Shown here: positions 10,018 to 15,787 of the stretch, one piece after another | How the letters are laid out: every line of letters starts with the position of its first letter | Position numbering within the stretch: the stretch's first letter is position 1 | From: a virus | Reading direction: 5' to 3' (one strand) | DNA length: 23,096 nucleotides | Virus record (IMG/VR): IMGVR_UViG_3300027797_000150 | Span: 1-23,096 of that record | Notes under the pieces: generated by a model | Told to the model about the DNA's origin: nothing | Database searches by the model: none | The model's input: only the letters and a program-made list of their open reading frames with translations | Translations under genes and position numbers: made by a program

Positions 10018-10572
10018 TCAGTTGTCTCTGTTGACTGGCCTCTCGAAACGCATCTCGCCGGCAATCGCTGATCCAGGCTTCGGAGCCTCTACTGGTATCC
10101 AGCCACGTGAGTAGGTGTGTTCCTTCAGGGACTTCTGCTTCACATAGGAGCCGTCAGCGAGGATTTCAAACTCTTCCCTCGTCATGACGAGAAGACTCTT
10201 CAAAGTTTGATCATCGTATTTGCGCGATGCTCTGATTGTCTTGAGAAGGTTGGATGTCTTCTTAGCAACAGACATTCCTTTGGATCTATTCAGCCTGATG
10301 TGCATCATCATTGCGTCAACCTCATCGCAGGAAACCCAAACGACAGGAACTTCACTGCCGAATCTTGCCTGTACGCCTTTGTTGTCTTTGGCGATAACCC
10401 AACGCAGGTTCCCATCAATGATGGTTCTATCTTCGGCCCTGACGATGATTGGCTGTAGCCATCCCCAGTCGGTCATTGACTGAATCAGCGACCTCTCATC
10501 GGGACGCAATAAATGGCTAGTAGACCATGGTGCTGGTCGTAGCGAATCAATTTCTACGGTTTCTATGTTCAC
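10018..10572 (-). CDS. ParB-like N-terminal-domain protein, second copy (184 aa)
   Basis: The first 90 residues match a ParB/sulfiredoxin-fold domain. There is IETVEIDSLRPAPW, then SMTDWGWLQPIIV, then IIDGNLRWVIAKD, which supplies the family's G-x-x-R box (Gly54 to Arg57), followed by VPVVWVSCDEVDAMMMHIRLN. The C-terminal half is charged and helical (GMSVAKKTSNLLKTIRASRK). Known members act as CTPases, nucleases or kinases, so the reaction here is not determined. I chose GTG 10572 because it overlaps the stop of the PP-loop gene as GTGA, like other joins in this operon; ATG 10593 or 10599 are alternatives with a GGGGA upstream. It closes an operon that opens with another ParB-like protein. 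Confidence 0.8.
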   Translation of the reverse strand: MNIETVEIDSLRPAPWSTSHLLRPDERSLIQSMTDWGWLQPIIVRAEDRTIIDGNLRWVIAKDNKGVQARFGSEVPVVWVSCDEVDAMMMHIRLNRSKGMSVAKKTSNLLKTIRASRKYDDQTLKSLLVMTREEFEILADGSYVKQKSLKEHTYSRGWIPVEAPKPGSAIAGEMRFERPVNRDN

Positions 10573-11366
10573 GAATCCTCGTCCATGAAGCATCCACATG
10601 TTCCCCAATCGTCTTTGTCAAACATCTGTGGTGCATCCTCTATCTGTGTACGGAAAGCCTTCAATGTCAATGGGAAGGTTTCCTTGTTTACGGTCTTCTT
10701 GAGAATCGCAACGTTCTTTCCAAGCATTACTCGCGTCTTCTCTTCTTCTGCTTCCCATTCCAAGTATCTCGGTTTATTCCATTCAAGCAATAGTTTCCAA
10801 GAAGCCTGTCCTCCGCGAACACAGGCCCCGCCACAGTTTGCATGACTGAAGCCTGCAGCGTAAAGACGTGGTGGTTCTATTCCCATACTTCGGAACTTCT
10901 CCAGAAGTGCGTACTTCTCTATGTATGGCGCATCCATCATTGGTGCTTCTATCTTCCATGGAAGCCACAATGGTTCAGCCTTCTCGAAACGATGTGGTTC
11001 TGTCCAGTCAAATCCAAGGTAGATGATTGATGACTCTGGTGGACAGTTGTGTTTAATCCACTTATTGAGAGCTTCTCTCTTGAGGATTCTTGAACAGACA
11101 GCAAACCTGTTGTTTGGCACAACACGCTGATCACGCCCAACCTGCATCGGATTTCTGCCGTCTCTAATTATGATCCACTCCCACCGTGGGGAAAGTGCTT
11201 TGACCACCTGTTCGGCGAAACGCCAGTTATCTTCGTCCTCCACCATTGTGTCGGCAGTCAGCAGGACAAGCCTGTCCTCTGGTTGTGCTTGCTCTTGTAC
11301 ACGGAAAGCCACTTCGGCACTCCCTGCTCCTGTGGAGAACTGTACGCATCTAACTATTCCTGTCAT
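10569..11366 (-). CDS. PP-loop / PAPS-reductase-like protein with variant ATP motif (265 aa)
   Basis: The fold order is that of adenine-nucleotide alpha-hydrolases. The N-terminus reads VRCVQFSTGAGSAEVAFR, where the loop is STGAGS (residues 11-16) in place of the usual SGGKDS. Next come LVLLTADTMVEDED, a CSRILKRE box (Cys91) and LGFDWTEPHR. Cysteines near the C-terminus are Cys178 and Cys182 (NCGGACVRGG) and Cys257 and Cys259 (GTCGCF), which could bind a metal or cluster. As I recall, phage proteins of this subfamily share the S-x-GAGS loop and these cysteines, so the variation may be a family trait rather than decay. The ATG at 11366 is chosen because AGAAGGG precedes it. It lies 5 nt after the canonical PP-loop gene. 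Confidence 0.82.
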   Translation of the reverse strand: MTGIVRCVQFSTGAGSAEVAFRVQEQAQPEDRLVLLTADTMVEDEDNWRFAEQVVKALSPRWEWIIIRDGRNPMQVGRDQRVVPNNRFAVCSRILKREALNKWIKHNCPPESSIIYLGFDWTEPHRFEKAEPLWLPWKIEAPMMDAPYIEKYALLEKFRSMGIEPPRLYAAGFSHANCGGACVRGGQASWKLLLEWNKPRYLEWEAEEEKTRVMLGKNVAILKKTVNKETFPLTLKAFRTQIEDAPQMFDKDDWGTCGCFMDEDS

Positions 11367-11370
11367 TTCT

Positions 11371-12516
11371 CTACCCTTCTGTAAGTCCTTGATTGTATGT
11401 CTGTTCGGCGGCTGCCCGCTTCTTCCAGTCCTTAGTCTTTGGCCCAACTGGTCGAGCAGAAGTGTTATGAAACTCATTCATAATTAGATTTCTGATTAGC
11501 CACGACAACGGGTATGAGACCGGGTCAAGAATGTGCTTCTTTCTGTAGTCAGCAACAAAGGCTAACGCAACAGTCCTAATCCCCGGAGTGAGCATGTTCT
11601 CGTTAATGCAACGCTTAACACCATCCCAACCCTGATCTGCGTAGTCGTCAATGTACGCATCAACATCAAACTCAGGCCACAACCTGTGCTGAGCATCAAC
11701 CTGGGGAAAGCAGTCATAGAGAGTGTCAAACCATGCAGGTTCTGCTGCCGTATAGTCGCGCAACCTTCTGATACTTACTGAGTGGAGCGGGATACCGACG
11801 CGTTGTACTCCACCAACCATTGCGGCAAGGTCGTAGTACTCACACCATTCGGCACCGTGTTCTTCGCTGATGAACTTCAACACGTCAGCCGATATCCAAT
11901 CGTAGATAGGTTTCGCAAACATCAACGGGATTGACTTCTCAAGTTTGTATGGACGAGTGATGTAGTTCTCGTTGAGCTTGTTTACAACAGATCTAAATCT
12001 CACCATTGACTCGTTCGCACGAACACCAGTAATGAAAGCCGTACGACCCTTCTTGCCTTGCATTGTGTAATAGTCAATTGCTTCAGGGATTGCTTGATAG
12101 TTGCTTAGACCGAAATGTCCTGCATGGATAGCCCATGGCGGCATCTCCCTAACAAGCCTTCCTTGCTGTTGGCGCATACCAGACCAAAGCAATACATATT
12201 CTCGCTTACCTAGAACCCAGCATTCTTGCCCAACCGGAAGGCAGTACCACTCCATATCAACCCAGTCGTAGCTACGAACTTTGTTGATGAAATCAATAAC
12301 TACTGGACTGACCATCTCTTCATCTCTGAAGATGACTTTGACGGGGCCAAGACCACGCGCCTCGTGAATCTCCTTAGCGAGATACAAAGCAGCAGTTGAG
12401 TCTTTGCCACCAGAGAACTGAACACAAACCGTGTCGAAGGTGTCGTAGATGTGTTTCATCCTCTCGCGCGCCGCGTCAACACATGACATATCAAGAAACA
12501 TTCTTTGCCTAGCCAT
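11371..12516 (-). CDS. PAPS-reductase-family PP-loop ATPase with DUF3440-like C-terminus, IbrA-like (381 aa)
   Basis: The intact PP-loop VCVQFSGGKDSTAAL (SGGKDS at residues 35-40) shows an ATP pyrophosphatase that adenylates a substrate, as in PAPS reductase and its relatives. Downstream are VKVIFRDEEMVSP, a FITGVRANES box, and AKPIYDWISADVLKFI, which matches the 'PIydWt..Dvw' segment of IbrA-like proteins. The rest (RRLRDYTAAEPAWFDTLYD, then a long helical region) is typical of the DUF3440 extension. In enterobacteria IbrA is paired with IbrB, a ParB-like protein, and ParB-like genes are present in this operon too. The ATG at 12516 has GAGGTAAG upstream and overlaps the preceding small gene. 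The true substrate of phage members is unknown. Confidence 0.88.
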   Translation of the reverse strand: MARQRMFLDMSCVDAARERMKHIYDTFDTVCVQFSGGKDSTAALYLAKEIHEARGLGPVKVIFRDEEMVSPVVIDFINKVRSYDWVDMEWYCLPVGQECWVLGKREYVLLWSGMRQQQGRLVREMPPWAIHAGHFGLSNYQAIPEAIDYYTMQGKKGRTAFITGVRANESMVRFRSVVNKLNENYITRPYKLEKSIPLMFAKPIYDWISADVLKFISEEHGAEWCEYYDLAAMVGGVQRVGIPLHSVSIRRLRDYTAAEPAWFDTLYDCFPQVDAQHRLWPEFDVDAYIDDYADQGWDGVKRCINENMLTPGIRTVALAFVADYRKKHILDPVSYPLSWLIRNLIMNEFHNTSARPVGPKTKDWKKRAAAEQTYNQGLTEG

Positions 12517-12700
12517 CAGTACTTACCTCTTCATCTGCCTGTTCCCATGTCATGCCGTATAGGACTTCAGGATTTCTATGACAAATACCGCATCTACCTA
12601 TTGCGTGATAACCGTGGGTCTTCCAAAGCCGACAACACCTCGCTACCGTTTCTGGACCCCATTCATTGCGAAGACGCATTCGTCCTTCACTGCTCGTCAT
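12509..12700 (-). CDS. Small Cys/His protein (63 aa), possible zinc-binding
   Basis: The frame has Cys22-Cys23, His29, His32 and a C-x2-C-H cluster (Cys37, Cys40, His41) in ARCCRLWKTHGYHAIGRCGI and the residues after it, which could hold one zinc ion. It ends in an acidic tail and overlaps the start of the PP-loop ATPase by eight bases. Two starts are possible: ATG 12700, which overlaps the upstream stop by 14 nt but has no clear ribosome site, and ATG 12682, five nt after that stop with AAGGA very close. I do not recognise a family. The placement inside the ParB/PP-loop operon and the metal-type residues make a real gene likely. Confidence 0.6.
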   Translation of the reverse strand: MTSSEGRMRLRNEWGPETVARCCRLWKTHGYHAIGRCGICHRNPEVLYGMTWEQADEEVSTDG

Positions 12701-12932
12701 GTGGCAGTTCTTTGGTTTCTTTGTTCTGAATCCATCCGCTGTAGGAGATCTTGGTTGGAAGGTTTGACGATACCGATGTTGGTACAAACGAATACGATGC
12801 ACCAGTTGGGTTGTCGTACTTCTCAACCATCTTCACCGAACCGTCAAGATTGAACTCAACCCTCTTTACTTTCGGGCAAGCAGTGACGGGGTGTTCCCCA
12901 CCAAGGCAGTACTGGCATTTCTTGTCTTCCAT
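12687..12932 (-). CDS. Zinc-knuckle (CCHC) protein (81 aa)
   Basis: The N-terminus carries CQYCLGGEHPVTAC, which is exactly the C-x2-C-x4-H-x4-C zinc knuckle (Cys6, Cys9, His14, Cys19) known from nucleic-acid-binding proteins. A beta-type stretch follows (KRVEFNLDGSVKMVEKYD), then a Ser/Pro-containing tail. The ATG at 12932 is chosen over a GTG four codons earlier because GAGG stands six bases before it. It starts two bases beyond the stop of the ParB-like gene (TGAGATG), so the two are translationally linked. It may present single-stranded DNA or RNA to the neighbouring enzymes; this is inferred from the motif and location only. Confidence 0.72.
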   Translation of the reverse strand: MEDKKCQYCLGGEHPVTACPKVKRVEFNLDGSVKMVEKYDNPTGASYSFVPTSVSSNLPTKISYSGWIQNKETKELPHDEQ

Positions 12933-12933
12933 C

Positions 12934-13710
12934 TCAAACCTCACTATGTGCGTCTATGAATGATGTGATCTTCTGTGCGATTGTGTCACCGTCGTAACCT
13001 GGGTTGGCTCTCAACCATTTCAAGAAATCCCACCAGCGAGACATCTGCTCATGATCATCAAACACGACATTGTAGGAGAACACTGCTTGTTTCGACCCAG
13101 AGTTTCCAGTTGTTCCAGACCCTCCAGCAACAGCTAGTTTCTGATCCATTCCTGCTGGGGCAACGTATCTGTCGCTTCCATCTTCTTGGCGAACCGTATC
13201 CATTACTGGTGCTGGGTCCATTAGTACTGGCGGAATATAGGCACCTGCAGCACCGTTTGCGTTGATTGACGAGTACGACTCGTCTACTTCAGTACCGATG
13301 GCGGCCACTTCGTATTCGTCCCAACCGACTGCATCAAACAATTCAGGGAAGTCATACACGACATCGTTGAGAGCGGCATTCAATAGTTCTGGGTCGGTCT
13401 TTCCAAGATCTGCAACTCTGTTGTCAACCAAGGCAAACGCAAGGGCTTCAGATGTTTCCCCTTCCATCTTCACAGCAGCAACATGAGACCATCCAAGTTT
13501 CTTTACAGCCTGGAGTTGATGGTTTCCTGCCACGACGACATACCTGCCATCCTCTTGTTCTTTGATAACAATCGGCTTTAGTTGTCCGAACTGTGAATAC
13601 GAAGCCATGATGGCATCAACGTTTCCAATGCGAGGGTTACCAGGGAGTGGATCAAGTAATGACACATCTACTGCTAAGTCAATTAAGTTCTGGTTGATAT
13701 TGTGATTCAT
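12934..13710 (-). CDS. ParB-like nuclease/NTPase-fold protein, first copy (258 aa)
   Basis: About residues 8-105 form a clear ParB N-terminal-type domain. It has LLDPLPGNPRIGNVDAIMAS, FGQLKPIVIKEQEDGRYVVV, and the box VAGNHQLQAVKKLG, in which the usual Gly-x-x-Arg ends in Gln65 rather than Arg. LAFALVDNRVADLG follows. A Gly/Pro/Ser linker leads to a C-terminal module (FSYNVVFDDHEQMSRWWDFL, then KWLRANPGY) that I have seen after ParB domains and in some phage methyltransferases. The ribosome site AAGGAG is seven bases before ATG 13710. It heads the ParB/Zn/PP-loop set. Similarity to IbrB is suggested by pairing with an IbrA-like gene, but the C-terminal module differs. Confidence 0.86.
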   Translation of the reverse strand: MNHNINQNLIDLAVDVSLLDPLPGNPRIGNVDAIMASYSQFGQLKPIVIKEQEDGRYVVVAGNHQLQAVKKLGWSHVAAVKMEGETSEALAFALVDNRVADLGKTDPELLNAALNDVVYDFPELFDAVGWDEYEVAAIGTEVDESYSSINANGAAGAYIPPVLMDPAPVMDTVRQEDGSDRYVAPAGMDQKLAVAGGSGTTGNSGSKQAVFSYNVVFDDHEQMSRWWDFLKWLRANPGYDGDTIAQKITSFIDAHSEV

Positions 13711-13729: not shown

Positions 13730-14080
13730 TCAGTTGCTCGTCTGAGCTCTAACGTTTGCGTTAATTGTGCGAAGAGCATCAATGGAAGAACGAACTGATC
13801 CAAGTTTCTCTCTCTTTGACTTGATGAGCGCATCGGCAATCTTCCACTCCATGTGGGTGTCGGCAATCTGATAGTCGGCCCATGCTTCACGTTCCTTGAT
13901 TGAACCGTTAGCGGCAAGATACGCCTTTGCCCATTCCGTCTTGAAACGAACTTCTTTCTTTGCAGAGTCAATAGCGAGAGTCTCAAAGACTTCCGTCTCG
14001 CTTTCTAGATCTTCTAGAAGACGCAGGATTTCCTCTTCCACCTCTACTTGGCTGATGGGCGCGTTCCTTGAGTTCTTCAT
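13730..14080 (-). CDS. Small helical phage protein (116 aa), probably recombination-associated
   Basis: Almost the whole protein is predicted helical and charged: VEEEILRLLEDLESETEVFE, then KEVRFKTEWAKAYLAANGSI, then a long helix ending SSIDALRTINANVRAQ. This layout, with the phrase 'aya.gsikEReawad' and the closing 'alRt.na.vr', recalls a conserved family of small phage proteins that often sits near annealing proteins and nucleases. Its biochemical role is not known to me. ATG 14080 is preferred over an upstream in-frame start because GAGG stands five bases before it, and the upstream start would overlap the RuvC-like gene. It follows that gene at 13 nt and precedes the ParB-like gene at 19 nt. 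Confidence 0.75.
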   Translation of the reverse strand: MKNSRNAPISQVEVEEEILRLLEDLESETEVFETLAIDSAKKEVRFKTEWAKAYLAANGSIKEREAWADYQIADTHMEWKIADALIKSKREKLGSVRSSIDALRTINANVRAQTSN

Positions 14081-14093
14081 ATCTACCTCAGTG

Positions 14094-14612
14094 CTATACG
14101 GACGGAAATCCCGACCAGTCAATCTTGTCTAGTGCAGCCATATTGGCTACTGGCCAATCATATTCACTTTCACCGAGGCGCGCTAGTCCCATTTGGCGTA
14201 ATACCCACGCATCACACATATCGTCGGCACCTTTACCGCTCCAGACAATCCCGGTTCTGGCTGAGATAGACGAGACGACTTCGTTCTTGGATGCGTTCCC
14301 TTTGCCTGTGGCGAACTTTGCTCGGCTCGTCGGAGGAACATCAATGTATGCAACCCCCGCTTCGTAAAGGGCGAGTCTCACCACACCACCCAACTCACCA
14401 AGTGCATGAGACTGACTGTTGCGAGAAGAGAACGAATAACCCTCAACTACAACAATCGGGTCGTCTTGTGCGGCCACAACAAGCATGATCCCATCACGGA
14501 TGTTTGCAAGACGTTCCATGCCTTTCGTCTTTGCTTGATAAGCGAACGAACCTTCCTTAGAGCAAACTCCTGTTGAGGAGAGGCTGAGGTCAAGTCCAAT
14601 AACGTTAGGCAT
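14094..14612 (-). CDS. RuvC-like Holliday junction resolvase (172 aa)
   Basis: This is an RNase H-fold nuclease. NVIGLDLSLSSTG provides the first catalytic Asp (Asp8), IVVVEGYSF the Glu (Glu57), and GADDMCDAWVL the C-terminal acidic pair (Asp131, Asp134). The three-strand start and the SQSHALGELGGVVRLALYEA helix fit phage RuvC-type resolvases, which cut four-way junctions and branched DNA before packaging. The length agrees with the family. It is the first gene of its operon and diverges from the plus-strand island. The ribosome site before the ATG is weak (GGTAG), so a promoter close by with a short leader is possible. Confidence 0.88.
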   Translation of the reverse strand: MPNVIGLDLSLSSTGVCSKEGSFAYQAKTKGMERLANIRDGIMLVVAAQDDPIVVVEGYSFSSRNSQSHALGELGGVVRLALYEAGVAYIDVPPTSRAKFATGKGNASKNEVVSSISARTGIVWSGKGADDMCDAWVLRQMGLARLGESEYDWPVANMAALDKIDWSGFPSV

Positions 14613-14702
14613 GTCACGATACTACCAACCGTTGTCTACGGGTTGTCGAGAAATCTGAATGGTATTGTGCTTTCGTACCCCCCCCACGAAAGGACATTAA
14701 AT
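14613..14702. promoter_or_regulatory. Divergent intergenic region between resolvase operon and plus-strand island
   Basis: These 90 bp separate two gene groups transcribed away from each other, so promoters for both directions should lie here or overlap gene starts. On the minus strand TCGACA followed after 19 bases by TAGTAT is a weak -35/-10-like pair. I see no strong sigma70 match on the plus strand. The region also holds an 8-base C run and a hairpin, listed separately. Confidence 0.5.
14670..14692 (+). promoter_or_regulatory. Leader hairpin with C8 loop overlapping a ribosome binding site
   Basis: CTTTCGT (14670-14676) and ACGAAAG (14686-14692) form a perfect 7-bp stem around the 9-nt loop ACCCCCCCC. 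The 3' arm contains most of the GAAAGGA ribosome site of the gene starting at 14703. Folding would hide that site, so the hairpin may control translation of the plus-strand island. Confidence 0.5.
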
Positions 14703-15053
14703 ATGTCAACAGCAGTACTCGCCCCAACAACCATCACATTGAACATTGCTGGAGGATTAAGCACCAGCAGTATCGTCACAATGGCTATGCCGTTCGCTGG
14801 CAAGATCACAAGTGCTTATGTTGCCTGCACCACAGCACCCGTAGGTTCAGCACTTGTCTCAGACCTTAAAGTTGGTTCTGATGTCGCAGCAGCGTTCTCA
14901 ATCGCAGCCGCAGGAACTTCAGACCAAGGCACGCTTACCGCTGCTAATTGCGATTTCGCAGCCGGCGCCCTTGTCAGTCTTGACGTTTCGGCAGTTGGTT
15001 CTGGCACCGCTGGTTCAAACATCACCGTAGCTTTCACAGTCGTTCAAGCCTAA
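14703..15053 (+). CDS. Ala/Ser/Thr/Val-rich beta protein (116 aa), possible virion decoration or fibre-like protein
   Basis: The sequence is low in charge and alternates short beta segments (TITLNIAGG, GKITSAYVACTTAPVGSAL, ALVSLDVSAVGSGTAG, NITVAFTVVQA). It looks like small phage beta-sandwich proteins that I remember near head or fibre genes, with a central 'aagtsdqgtLtaancdFaaG' region. No signal peptide or catalytic motif is visible. The ATG at 14703 is chosen because AAAGGA stands 8 bases before it; an upstream TTG-started extension crosses the hairpin and the C8 run. It opens the three-gene plus-strand island. Probably structural, but the family is not identified. Confidence 0.75.
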   Translation: MSTAVLAPTTITLNIAGGLSTSSIVTMAMPFAGKITSAYVACTTAPVGSALVSDLKVGSDVAAAFSIAAAGTSDQGTLTAANCDFAAGALVSLDVSAVGSGTAGSNITVAFTVVQA

Positions 15054-15082
15054 GCAACAGCAACAACAAAGAGAGCAGCACT

Positions 15083-15787
15083 ATGTCTGGAATCATCGCA
15101 CCATCAATCGTCAACTTTGACTGGACCGTAAGGCAGAGCGACCCTTCTTACCTGAATGTGTCTTTCCCATTCCGTGTCAAGATTGAGTCAATCTGGTTCA
15201 CCACACAGCAACTCTACGGAGCAACCAATGGTCTTTGGAACACCACTGATGGTGAAGGTGGAAACATTTCCGTAGACATTGAAACGACCGAACGACTACT
15301 GCGCCTTGCAGCAGTCAAGACCAAGAACTCAAAGACACAGCATAGCCAGTACGACAATCCATCAGATTGGATGTTTGGCTTTGAGGATGTTGGCTACGAC
15401 GGCTCAGTGACTGACGAACTAAAGCCAACAATGTGGCTCGGCAACCCAGATGATGCTGCTGGAAGAGTTGGGGCATTTACACCACAGCCATACTTTGGCA
15501 ATGGCGTACTTGACCTGCGAAGCACAGCAGCGACACCTATTGACAAGGCCCAAGCATTAAACAATAGTTGGAACGAAGTGGAGCACAACGCAAATACCTA
15601 CCTTGCGGATGTTGCAGTTATGAACACAGACGAAATCCTTCAACTGTTTGTTTACGAAGATGGCGGCGACTGGACAGGCTATGAGAATGACGCAAAGGTC
15701 ACAATCTCGGTTGCTTACACTGGCATCCACGGCACAGATACACCATCGGCTTCAGCTAAGCCATGGACAGCATGGTGGAACGACTAA
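15083..15787 (+). CDS. Unrecognised protein, probably structural (234 aa)
   Basis: I do not recognise this protein. It is acidic, rich in Asp, Asn, Thr and Trp, and shows no transmembrane segment or enzyme motif. Segments such as SYLNVSFPFRVKIESIWFTT and DEILQLFVYEDGGDWTGYEN suggest a beta-sandwich or jelly-roll protein. The C-terminus (AKVTISVAYTGIHGTD, then PWTAWWND) ends in a Trp-rich tag. An AAAGAGAG purine stretch precedes the ATG by about eight bases. It follows the Ala-rich beta protein at 29 nt, and both could be exposed virion proteins, for instance a fibre or decoration with its partner. That remains inference from composition and neighbours. Confidence 0.7.
   Translation: MSGIIAPSIVNFDWTVRQSDPSYLNVSFPFRVKIESIWFTTQQLYGATNGLWNTTDGEGGNISVDIETTERLLRLAAVKTKNSKTQHSQYDNPSDWMFGFEDVGYDGSVTDELKPTMWLGNPDDAAGRVGAFTPQPYFGNGVLDLRSTAATPIDKAQALNNSWNEVEHNANTYLADVAVMNTDEILQLFVYEDGGDWTGYENDAKVTISVAYTGIHGTDTPSASAKPWTAWWND

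Follow-up and report, generated by a model that had tools for sequence, protein, structure and literature searches.

The 23,096-base IMG/VR virus record IMGVR_UViG_3300027797_000150, the whole of which is referred to here as the window, encodes on its minus strand a run of six genes in the order ParB1, small protein 1, small protein 2, PP1, PP2 and ParB2. The conserved core of this locus is the triad ParB1-PP1-ParB2, in which the gene for a PP-loop ATP-pyrophosphatase (PP1) is framed by genes for two ParB-fold proteins; it is kept in this order across unrelated phages, and PP2 is a foreign, lineage-specific insert of an independent gene. We read the locus, with a probability of roughly 45%, as a phage triad of the IbrA/IbrB type that carries PP2 as cargo between PP1 and ParB2 and two small cysteine genes between ParB1 and PP1, and that would serve as a nucleic acid or nucleotide modification module with swappable tailoring enzymes.

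Conservation of the ParB1-PP1-ParB2 triad

A PP1-led scan of IMG/VR yielded more than 590 relatives, 80 of which were kept for locus comparison; further scans, led by the PP1 homologue of mycobacteriophage Phlyer and by ParB2, were the source of the locus statistics. Among the 80 kept relatives, those of the window's phage family have ParB2 directly after PP1 and ParB1 upstream of it. At divergent, non-redundant loci a ParB gene lies downstream of PP1 in 44 of 46 cases and upstream in 35 of 42. An earlier note on this DNA had proposed that the gene order be checked for co-conservation in phages, and it is the triad that holds, with the PP-loop gene framed by ParB genes on both sides at 28 of 34 divergent loci. 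When ParB2 is taken as the anchor, PP1 is found upstream in 28/32 loci. The background, measured in similar phage DNA with PP2 as anchor, is a ParB gene within 3 kb in 0/45 loci upstream and 1/50 downstream, and at these PP2-anchored loci PP1 is never present outside the window's lineage. PP1 and ParB2 nearly always occur together.

The triad appears in the same order in mycobacterial, Arthrobacter, Bacillus, Rhizobium and Faecalibacterium phages as well as in dozens of metagenomic phages. Annotated examples are mycobacteriophage Phlyer (gp1-5), Arthrobacter phage Kovu (gp5-7), Bacillus phage 031MP002 (gp80/81/85), Rhizobium phage L338C and Faecalibacterium phage FP_Taranis. The runs annotated as ParB-PAPS-ParB in Phlyer, Kovu and FP_Taranis (PAPS, phosphoadenosine phosphosulfate) match the triad of the window in composition and order, with PP1 proteins that are 19-36% identical; they differ from it in that PP2 is found nowhere in these genomes and the cargo is another one, a GNAT gene in the case of Kovu. 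We found no paper that describes these runs as a system. Bacterial genomes keep only the PP1-ParB2 pair, with ParB downstream in 67/71 cases and upstream in 1/68.

In a second phage group, typified by contig L017, PP1 stands locally alone. Loss of ParB2 from this group was considered and rejected, as two large genomes, G003 (L029, 105.7 kb) and G006 (L039, 137.8 kb), retain PP1, ParB1 and ParB2, tens of kilobases apart. Such co-retention in the absence of linkage argues for a functional tie among the three proteins. A conserved protein of about 140 amino acid residues (MQTFVPY..DYRRLGKQRVETLQ) often precedes PP1 in the same group.

In the window, the six open reading frames (ORFs) are arranged head to tail, neighbors overlapping or standing apart by only a few bases, so that the six coupled genes of the earlier note are real. 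The ratio of nonsynonymous to synonymous substitution rates (dN/dS), calculated between the window and its relative L006, ranges from 0.010 to 0.076 over the six genes, and consequently all six are under purifying selection as proteins and the coding is real.

PP1 and the two ParB proteins

PP1 (11371..12516, minus strand; 381 residues) is an IbrA/PAPS-reductase-like PP-loop ATP-pyrophosphatase with a helical C-terminal domain. It scores 34.2 bits against PF01507 (cut-off 22.5) and matches phrog_2302 with an E value of 1e-71. The protein possesses an intact SGGKDS loop, as the earlier note had observed for one of its PP-loop proteins, together with GxRxxES..R and DW motifs; the loop and GxRxxES..R are complete across an alignment of 26 diverse PP1 sequences. 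No cysteine is invariant in alignments of 21 and 26 sequences, so that the catalytic Cys of the ECG[IL]H type is missing and the assignment of PP1 as a PAPS reductase by activity is rejected. The AlphaFold model has a predicted local distance difference test score (pLDDT) of 84.5, the alignments used for structure prediction consisting of window and IMG/VR rows only, and its nearest Foldseek neighbors are flavin adenine dinucleotide (FAD) synthase and CysH (PAPS-reductase) domains (E~1e-5). The modeled fold is therefore suggestive of adenylyl chemistry without the reductase cysteine. The PP-loop region also matches the DndC and BrxP profiles (E about 1e-6), a likeness limited to the loop; PP1 lacks a cysteine dyad and reaches only 24 bits against TIGR03183 (DndC), whose cut-off is 290. 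PP1 has the lowest dN/dS of the six genes (0.01).

The framing of the locus by two ParB-fold proteins is confirmed. ParB1 (12934..13710, minus strand; 258 residues) consists of a ParB N-terminal domain and a C-terminal domain that is conserved in actinophage ParB proteins, and it matches PF02195 (E=2.7e-8) and phrog_723 (E=8e-36). ParB2 (10018..10572, minus strand; 184 residues) has an IbrB-like ParB/Srx fold; it matches phrog_2159 (E=1e-29) and scores 20.4 bits against PF02195, below the cut-off of 26.3. Its most probable start is the GTG at 10572, which overlaps the PP2 stop as GTGA. In relatives without PP2 this gene adjoins PP1, and in the window only the PP2 insert separates the two.

The two ParB proteins differ in the P-motif, which reads GNHQ in ParB1, where the arginine is lost, and DGNLR in ParB2, where it is kept. 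An alignment of 30 ParB2 sequences reveals invariant D52, G53, R56, N94 and R95 and a P-motif of the form DG-x-x-R. Where the motif is readable, the arginine is present in 91/91 downstream ParBs versus 26/88 upstream ParBs, the latter mostly showing GNHQ or GNHT. Since replacement of this arginine abolished nucleotide binding in tested ParB folds (PMC12704722), ParB2 is probably a nucleoside triphosphate (NTP)-binding partner and ParB1 a degenerate one. No helix-turn-helix (HTH) was found in ParB2. No ParA was seen among the genes scanned, which are part of the ORFs of a window that is itself a fragment, and the ParB match is to the N-terminal domain only.

PP2, an inserted SspD/PptA-like gene

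PP2 (10569..11366, minus strand; 265 residues) begins at the ATG at 11366 rather than at position 11477 as given by the ORF caller. It matches phrog_424 (E=5e-34) and nothing in Pfam, and its loop is the variant STGAGS. The PP2 profile matches chain C of PDB entry 21fy, named "PptA" (E=3e-15 over 211 columns), and over the region of the match this chain has the same sequence as a protein of Vibrio phage VH-5. PptA in turn matches SspD with an E value of 2e-11, the direct match of PP2 to SspD being weak (E=0.003). An alignment that took in PptA and two PptA-like phage proteins identifies five conserved PP2 cysteines (C91, C178, C182, C257 and C259), and PP2 and PptA have in common Cys-91, an NC-x(2-3)-C pair, a C-terminal Cys pair and a degenerate PP-loop. 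A second PP-loop protein with a variant loop and extra cysteines had thus been correctly noticed. The best Foldseek matches of the PP2 model are TtuA, NcsA and LarE, which are Fe-S or sulfur transferases; the library used ends in April 2026, and 21fy lies outside it. Judged by sequence, PP2 is distantly related to SspD, the sulfurtransferase of DNA phosphorothioation, and in this protein the proposed link to sulfur chemistry survives, one of the two PP-loop proteins resembling DNA-sulfur enzymes. We found no paper on PptA of VH-5; its name and homology lead us to guess that it may be a phage phosphorothioation protein.

The alignment with L008 and L009, which lack PP2 and whose PP1 proteins are 83-85% identical to that of the window, shows PP2 to be inserted precisely where the PP1 stop would meet the ParB2 start. 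Among the 80 kept PP1 relatives it is limited to the nearest ones. Of 20 triad records searched over their full length, 18 lack PP2, five complete GenBank phages among them; both records which contain it belong to the window's own lineage. Relatives of PP2 that are not accompanied by the triad were seen in mycobacteriophages from different genera, in Bacillus phage Stills and in many phages known from metagenomes. On these data, SspD/PptA-like sulfurtransferases travel between phages as single genes. The possibility that PP1 and PP2 are recent duplicates was rejected, as the two profiles can be aligned over the PP-loop alone (49 columns, probability 26%).

The products might alternatively be true PAPS reductases which boost cysteine synthesis in the host, an interpretation in keeping with the Pfam and PHROG names and with the similarity to the CysH fold. 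It is extremely improbable: PP1 has no invariant cysteine, PP2 has (T/S/A)CGCF at its end in place of ECG(I/L)H and belongs with SspD/PptA, and the ParB partners would be left unexplained. The locus as a sulfur-metabolism auxiliary gene set is accordingly rejected on the missing cysteines.

In five actinophage-like contigs (L087, L088, L089, L090 and L093) a protein (MKVLSLFSGVGGFDMGLENAG...) which, by sequence motif, is C5-cytosine-methyltransferase-like lies within about two genes downstream of a PP2 relative.

Small cysteine-containing proteins

Small protein 1 (12687..12932, minus strand; 81 residues) contains a CCHC zinc knuckle, CX2CX4HX4C, that is kept in L006 and L008. This pattern is present in 21 of 17,816 small stop-to-stop frames, with these proteins counted in. 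The protein has no match among GenBank phages at E≤0.01. Small protein 2 (12509..12700, minus strand; 63 residues), the start of which overlaps the end of small protein 1, shows a CC and a CxxC, and its dN/dS is 0.07. Of the two Cys/His proteins that had been described here, the first therefore carries a textbook metal motif, the second CC and CxxC only. Among the 80 PP1 relatives, homologues of both small genes are found in close relatives only. Phlyer likewise has two small genes between ParB1 and PP1.

The earlier note had taken the doubled, zinc finger-containing set of six genes for one complete system, which it was prepared to abandon if the genes did not co-occur. Translational coupling and purifying selection on all six genes in the window lineage are what one would expect if the six genes formed a self-contained pathway with joint action of the two PP-loop enzymes. 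Such a pathway is nevertheless very unlikely, because PP2 occurs in just two of the 20 triad records and elsewhere without the triad, the small genes are restricted to close relatives, and PP1 and PP2 are not duplicates. By co-occurrence the single-system interpretation fails for PP2 and for the small proteins, and obligate joint action of all six is already contradicted.

Cargo genes at the PP1/ParB2 junction

A ParB gene lies downstream of PP1 at 106 non-redundant loci, directly adjacent to it at 92 and separated from it by a gap at 14. The gaps contain methyltransferases (phrog_11826), GNAT-like genes, HNH-like genes and one TauD-like dioxygenase. When genes located within the gap or immediately behind ParB2 are counted, 11 of 32 divergent triads have a GNAT acetyltransferase gene, 10 a methyltransferase, none both and 11 neither; controls gave 0/71 for window-type loci and 0/61 for PP2 loci. 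This pattern agrees with the ParB domains that are fused to methyltransferases or acetyltransferases, which fusions bind ATP or GTP (PMC12704722); DndB also binds ATP/GTP (PMC12704722). The location of PP2 at the junction in the window, and of GNAT and methyltransferase genes at or beside it in other phages, suggests that group-transfer enzymes are exchanged around a common core.

In 14/32 divergent triads the GNAT or methyltransferase gene is accompanied by a gene for a small HNH-like Zn protein (CEICGQDKG....H.EDY) (e.g., L370:3288-3668, L371, L373, L376 and L380). In one contig (L380:6110-6772) a TauD-like 2-oxoglutarate dioxygenase, a GNAT and an HNH-like protein are found together between PP1 and ParB2.

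Proposed mechanism and alternatives

From the order, co-retention, insertion, motifs and cargo recurrence we infer the following scheme. Through its SGGKDS loop, PP1 would use ATP to adenylate an oxygen atom, of a carbonyl or a phosphate group, in a nucleic acid or nucleotide substrate. ParB2, with an intact GxxR P-motif, would be the NTP-binding partner, which could hold or scan DNA or handle the nucleotide and position or gate the reaction with NTP, and ParB1, having usually lost the P-motif arginine, may act as a scaffold or recruiter. The final chemistry would be set by the cargo enzyme: methyl or acetyl transfer in other lineages, and in the window lineage possibly sulfur transfer by PP2, in which three cysteines and a CxC could hold an Fe-S cluster or a persulfide. 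The product would presumably mark phage DNA or protect it against host nucleases. The modification role proposed in the earlier note is plausible. That such an adenylating core gives rise to a new class of hypermodified phage DNA, its final group (methyl, acetyl or, here, sulfur) depending on which exchangeable enzyme is encoded at or near the PP1/ParB2 junction, is a more doubtful proposition.

Several points weigh against the modification module. E. coli IbrA/IbrB is an activator of prophage gene expression, and we found in the literature no assay of these proteins nor a substrate for them. Confidence in the PP2 model is moderate, with a pLDDT of 70 and low values at the Cys loops (template modeling score about 0.4), and the Asp that is usual in a PP-loop is missing from that of PP2. 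Among the window proteins scanned, neither a desulfurase nor DndD/DndE or SspB/SspC was seen beside PP2; the record is a fragment, and host enzymes could serve. The mutual exclusion of GNAT and methyltransferase genes has a hypergeometric P of about 0.005 in a calculation that ignores kinship, neither family is identified as DNA-modifying, and the genes usually come after ParB2 and are interposed between it and PP1 in some lineages only, so that the "same slot" as that of PP2 is approximate.

The main rival holds that PP1-ParB2 is an IbrA/IbrB co-activator pair that acts as a switch on transcription of the phage or the host; ParB1 and the small zinc-knuckle protein would be further regulators which bind DNA or RNA, and the cargo genes would be morons. 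Several triad phages annotate IbrA/IbrB as co-activators of prophage gene expression, nucleic acid binding would suit both the ParB fold and a zinc knuckle, and it is this pair that bacteria keep (ParB downstream in 67/71). We consider it unlikely, as the complete ATP-pyrophosphatase loop and GxRxxES..R of 26 diverse PP1 proteins would be superfluous in a pure regulator, ParB2 shows no HTH, and methyltransferase and GNAT genes recur beside the triad. Second among the rivals, and likewise improbable, is counter-defense or superinfection exclusion, in which PP1 and ParB2 would consume or modify a signaling nucleotide or the NTP pool and PP2 would imitate or sabotage host phosphorothioation. In conflict systems, ParB/Srx domains function as NTPases or nucleases (PMC5512222, PMC10853773), and an SspD-like PP2 without SspB/SspC partners would be in line with this idea; against it, the module lies near packaging and recombination genes and is kept over very diverse phages and in unlinked genomes, which is more like a housekeeping function than a rapidly changing anti-defense gene. 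PP1 is, moreover, the most conserved of the six genes between the window and L006.

Relationship to known systems

PP1 and ParB2 are profile-level homologues of IbrA and IbrB, and the order is the same, a protein with SGGKDS and GxRxxES..R being followed by a ParB-fold gene. The phage module differs from the bacterial pair in its second, upstream ParB (35/42 versus 1/68), in the GNAT or methyltransferase gene that often accompanies it, and in the window by the PP2 insert. PP2 resembles PptA of Vibrio phage VH-5 (21fy) in the degenerate PP-loop, the C..NC-x(2-3)-C arrangement and the C-terminal Cys pair; from SspD and the SspABCD system it differs in its weak similarity, the lack of visible Ssp partners and its location inside an IbrAB-type triad. 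We found no paper which gives a function for phage IbrAB or describes the triad as a conserved unit. The pair itself is known by name, and we found no earlier description of the asymmetry of the ParB1 and ParB2 motifs, the alternation of GNAT and methyltransferase genes, or the SspD-like insert.

PAPS reductase-ParB (Ibr) genes are widespread and unexplained in tailed phages, where they are often filed as auxiliary genes of sulfur metabolism or as partition proteins. The data indicate instead a conserved ParB-PP-loop-ParB module with exchangeable tailoring enzymes, and the function of IbrA/IbrB thereby becomes directly testable in cultured phages such as Phlyer, Kovu and Bacillus phage 031MP002.

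In many IbrA/IbrB pairs of bacteria, and in some of phages, an SNF2/SF2 helicase-like gene lies immediately upstream of IbrA and overlaps it; some of these loci also have a GNAT gene. An SNF2-rel_dom match was obtained for 15 of 79 neighbor proteins of IbrA/IbrB pairs. Examples are L273:4757-6010, L276, L277, L278, L282, L298, L310 and L312, as well as Streptococcus phage CHPC1148 (L103:2764-3999). Such loci seem to form a distinct, three-gene branch of this family.

Flanking genes

The window phage is contractile-tailed, as genes for a tail sheath and a tail-assembly chaperone are present, and it also encodes a terminase large subunit and Rad52-like, PD-(D/E)XK and RuvC-like proteins. Searches of the window returned no match in Rfam and no tRNA, and PADLOC gave weak matches at the level of the loop only. 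The upstream flank (13730..14612, minus strand) holds a phrog_1389 protein and the RuvC-like resolvase; these are conserved neighbors of the module in the window's phage family and lie outside it. Beyond them, two proteins of 136 and 234 residues, both without a PHROG match at E≤0.001, are encoded on the plus strand at 14643-15787, between the RuvC-like gene and an HNH gene.

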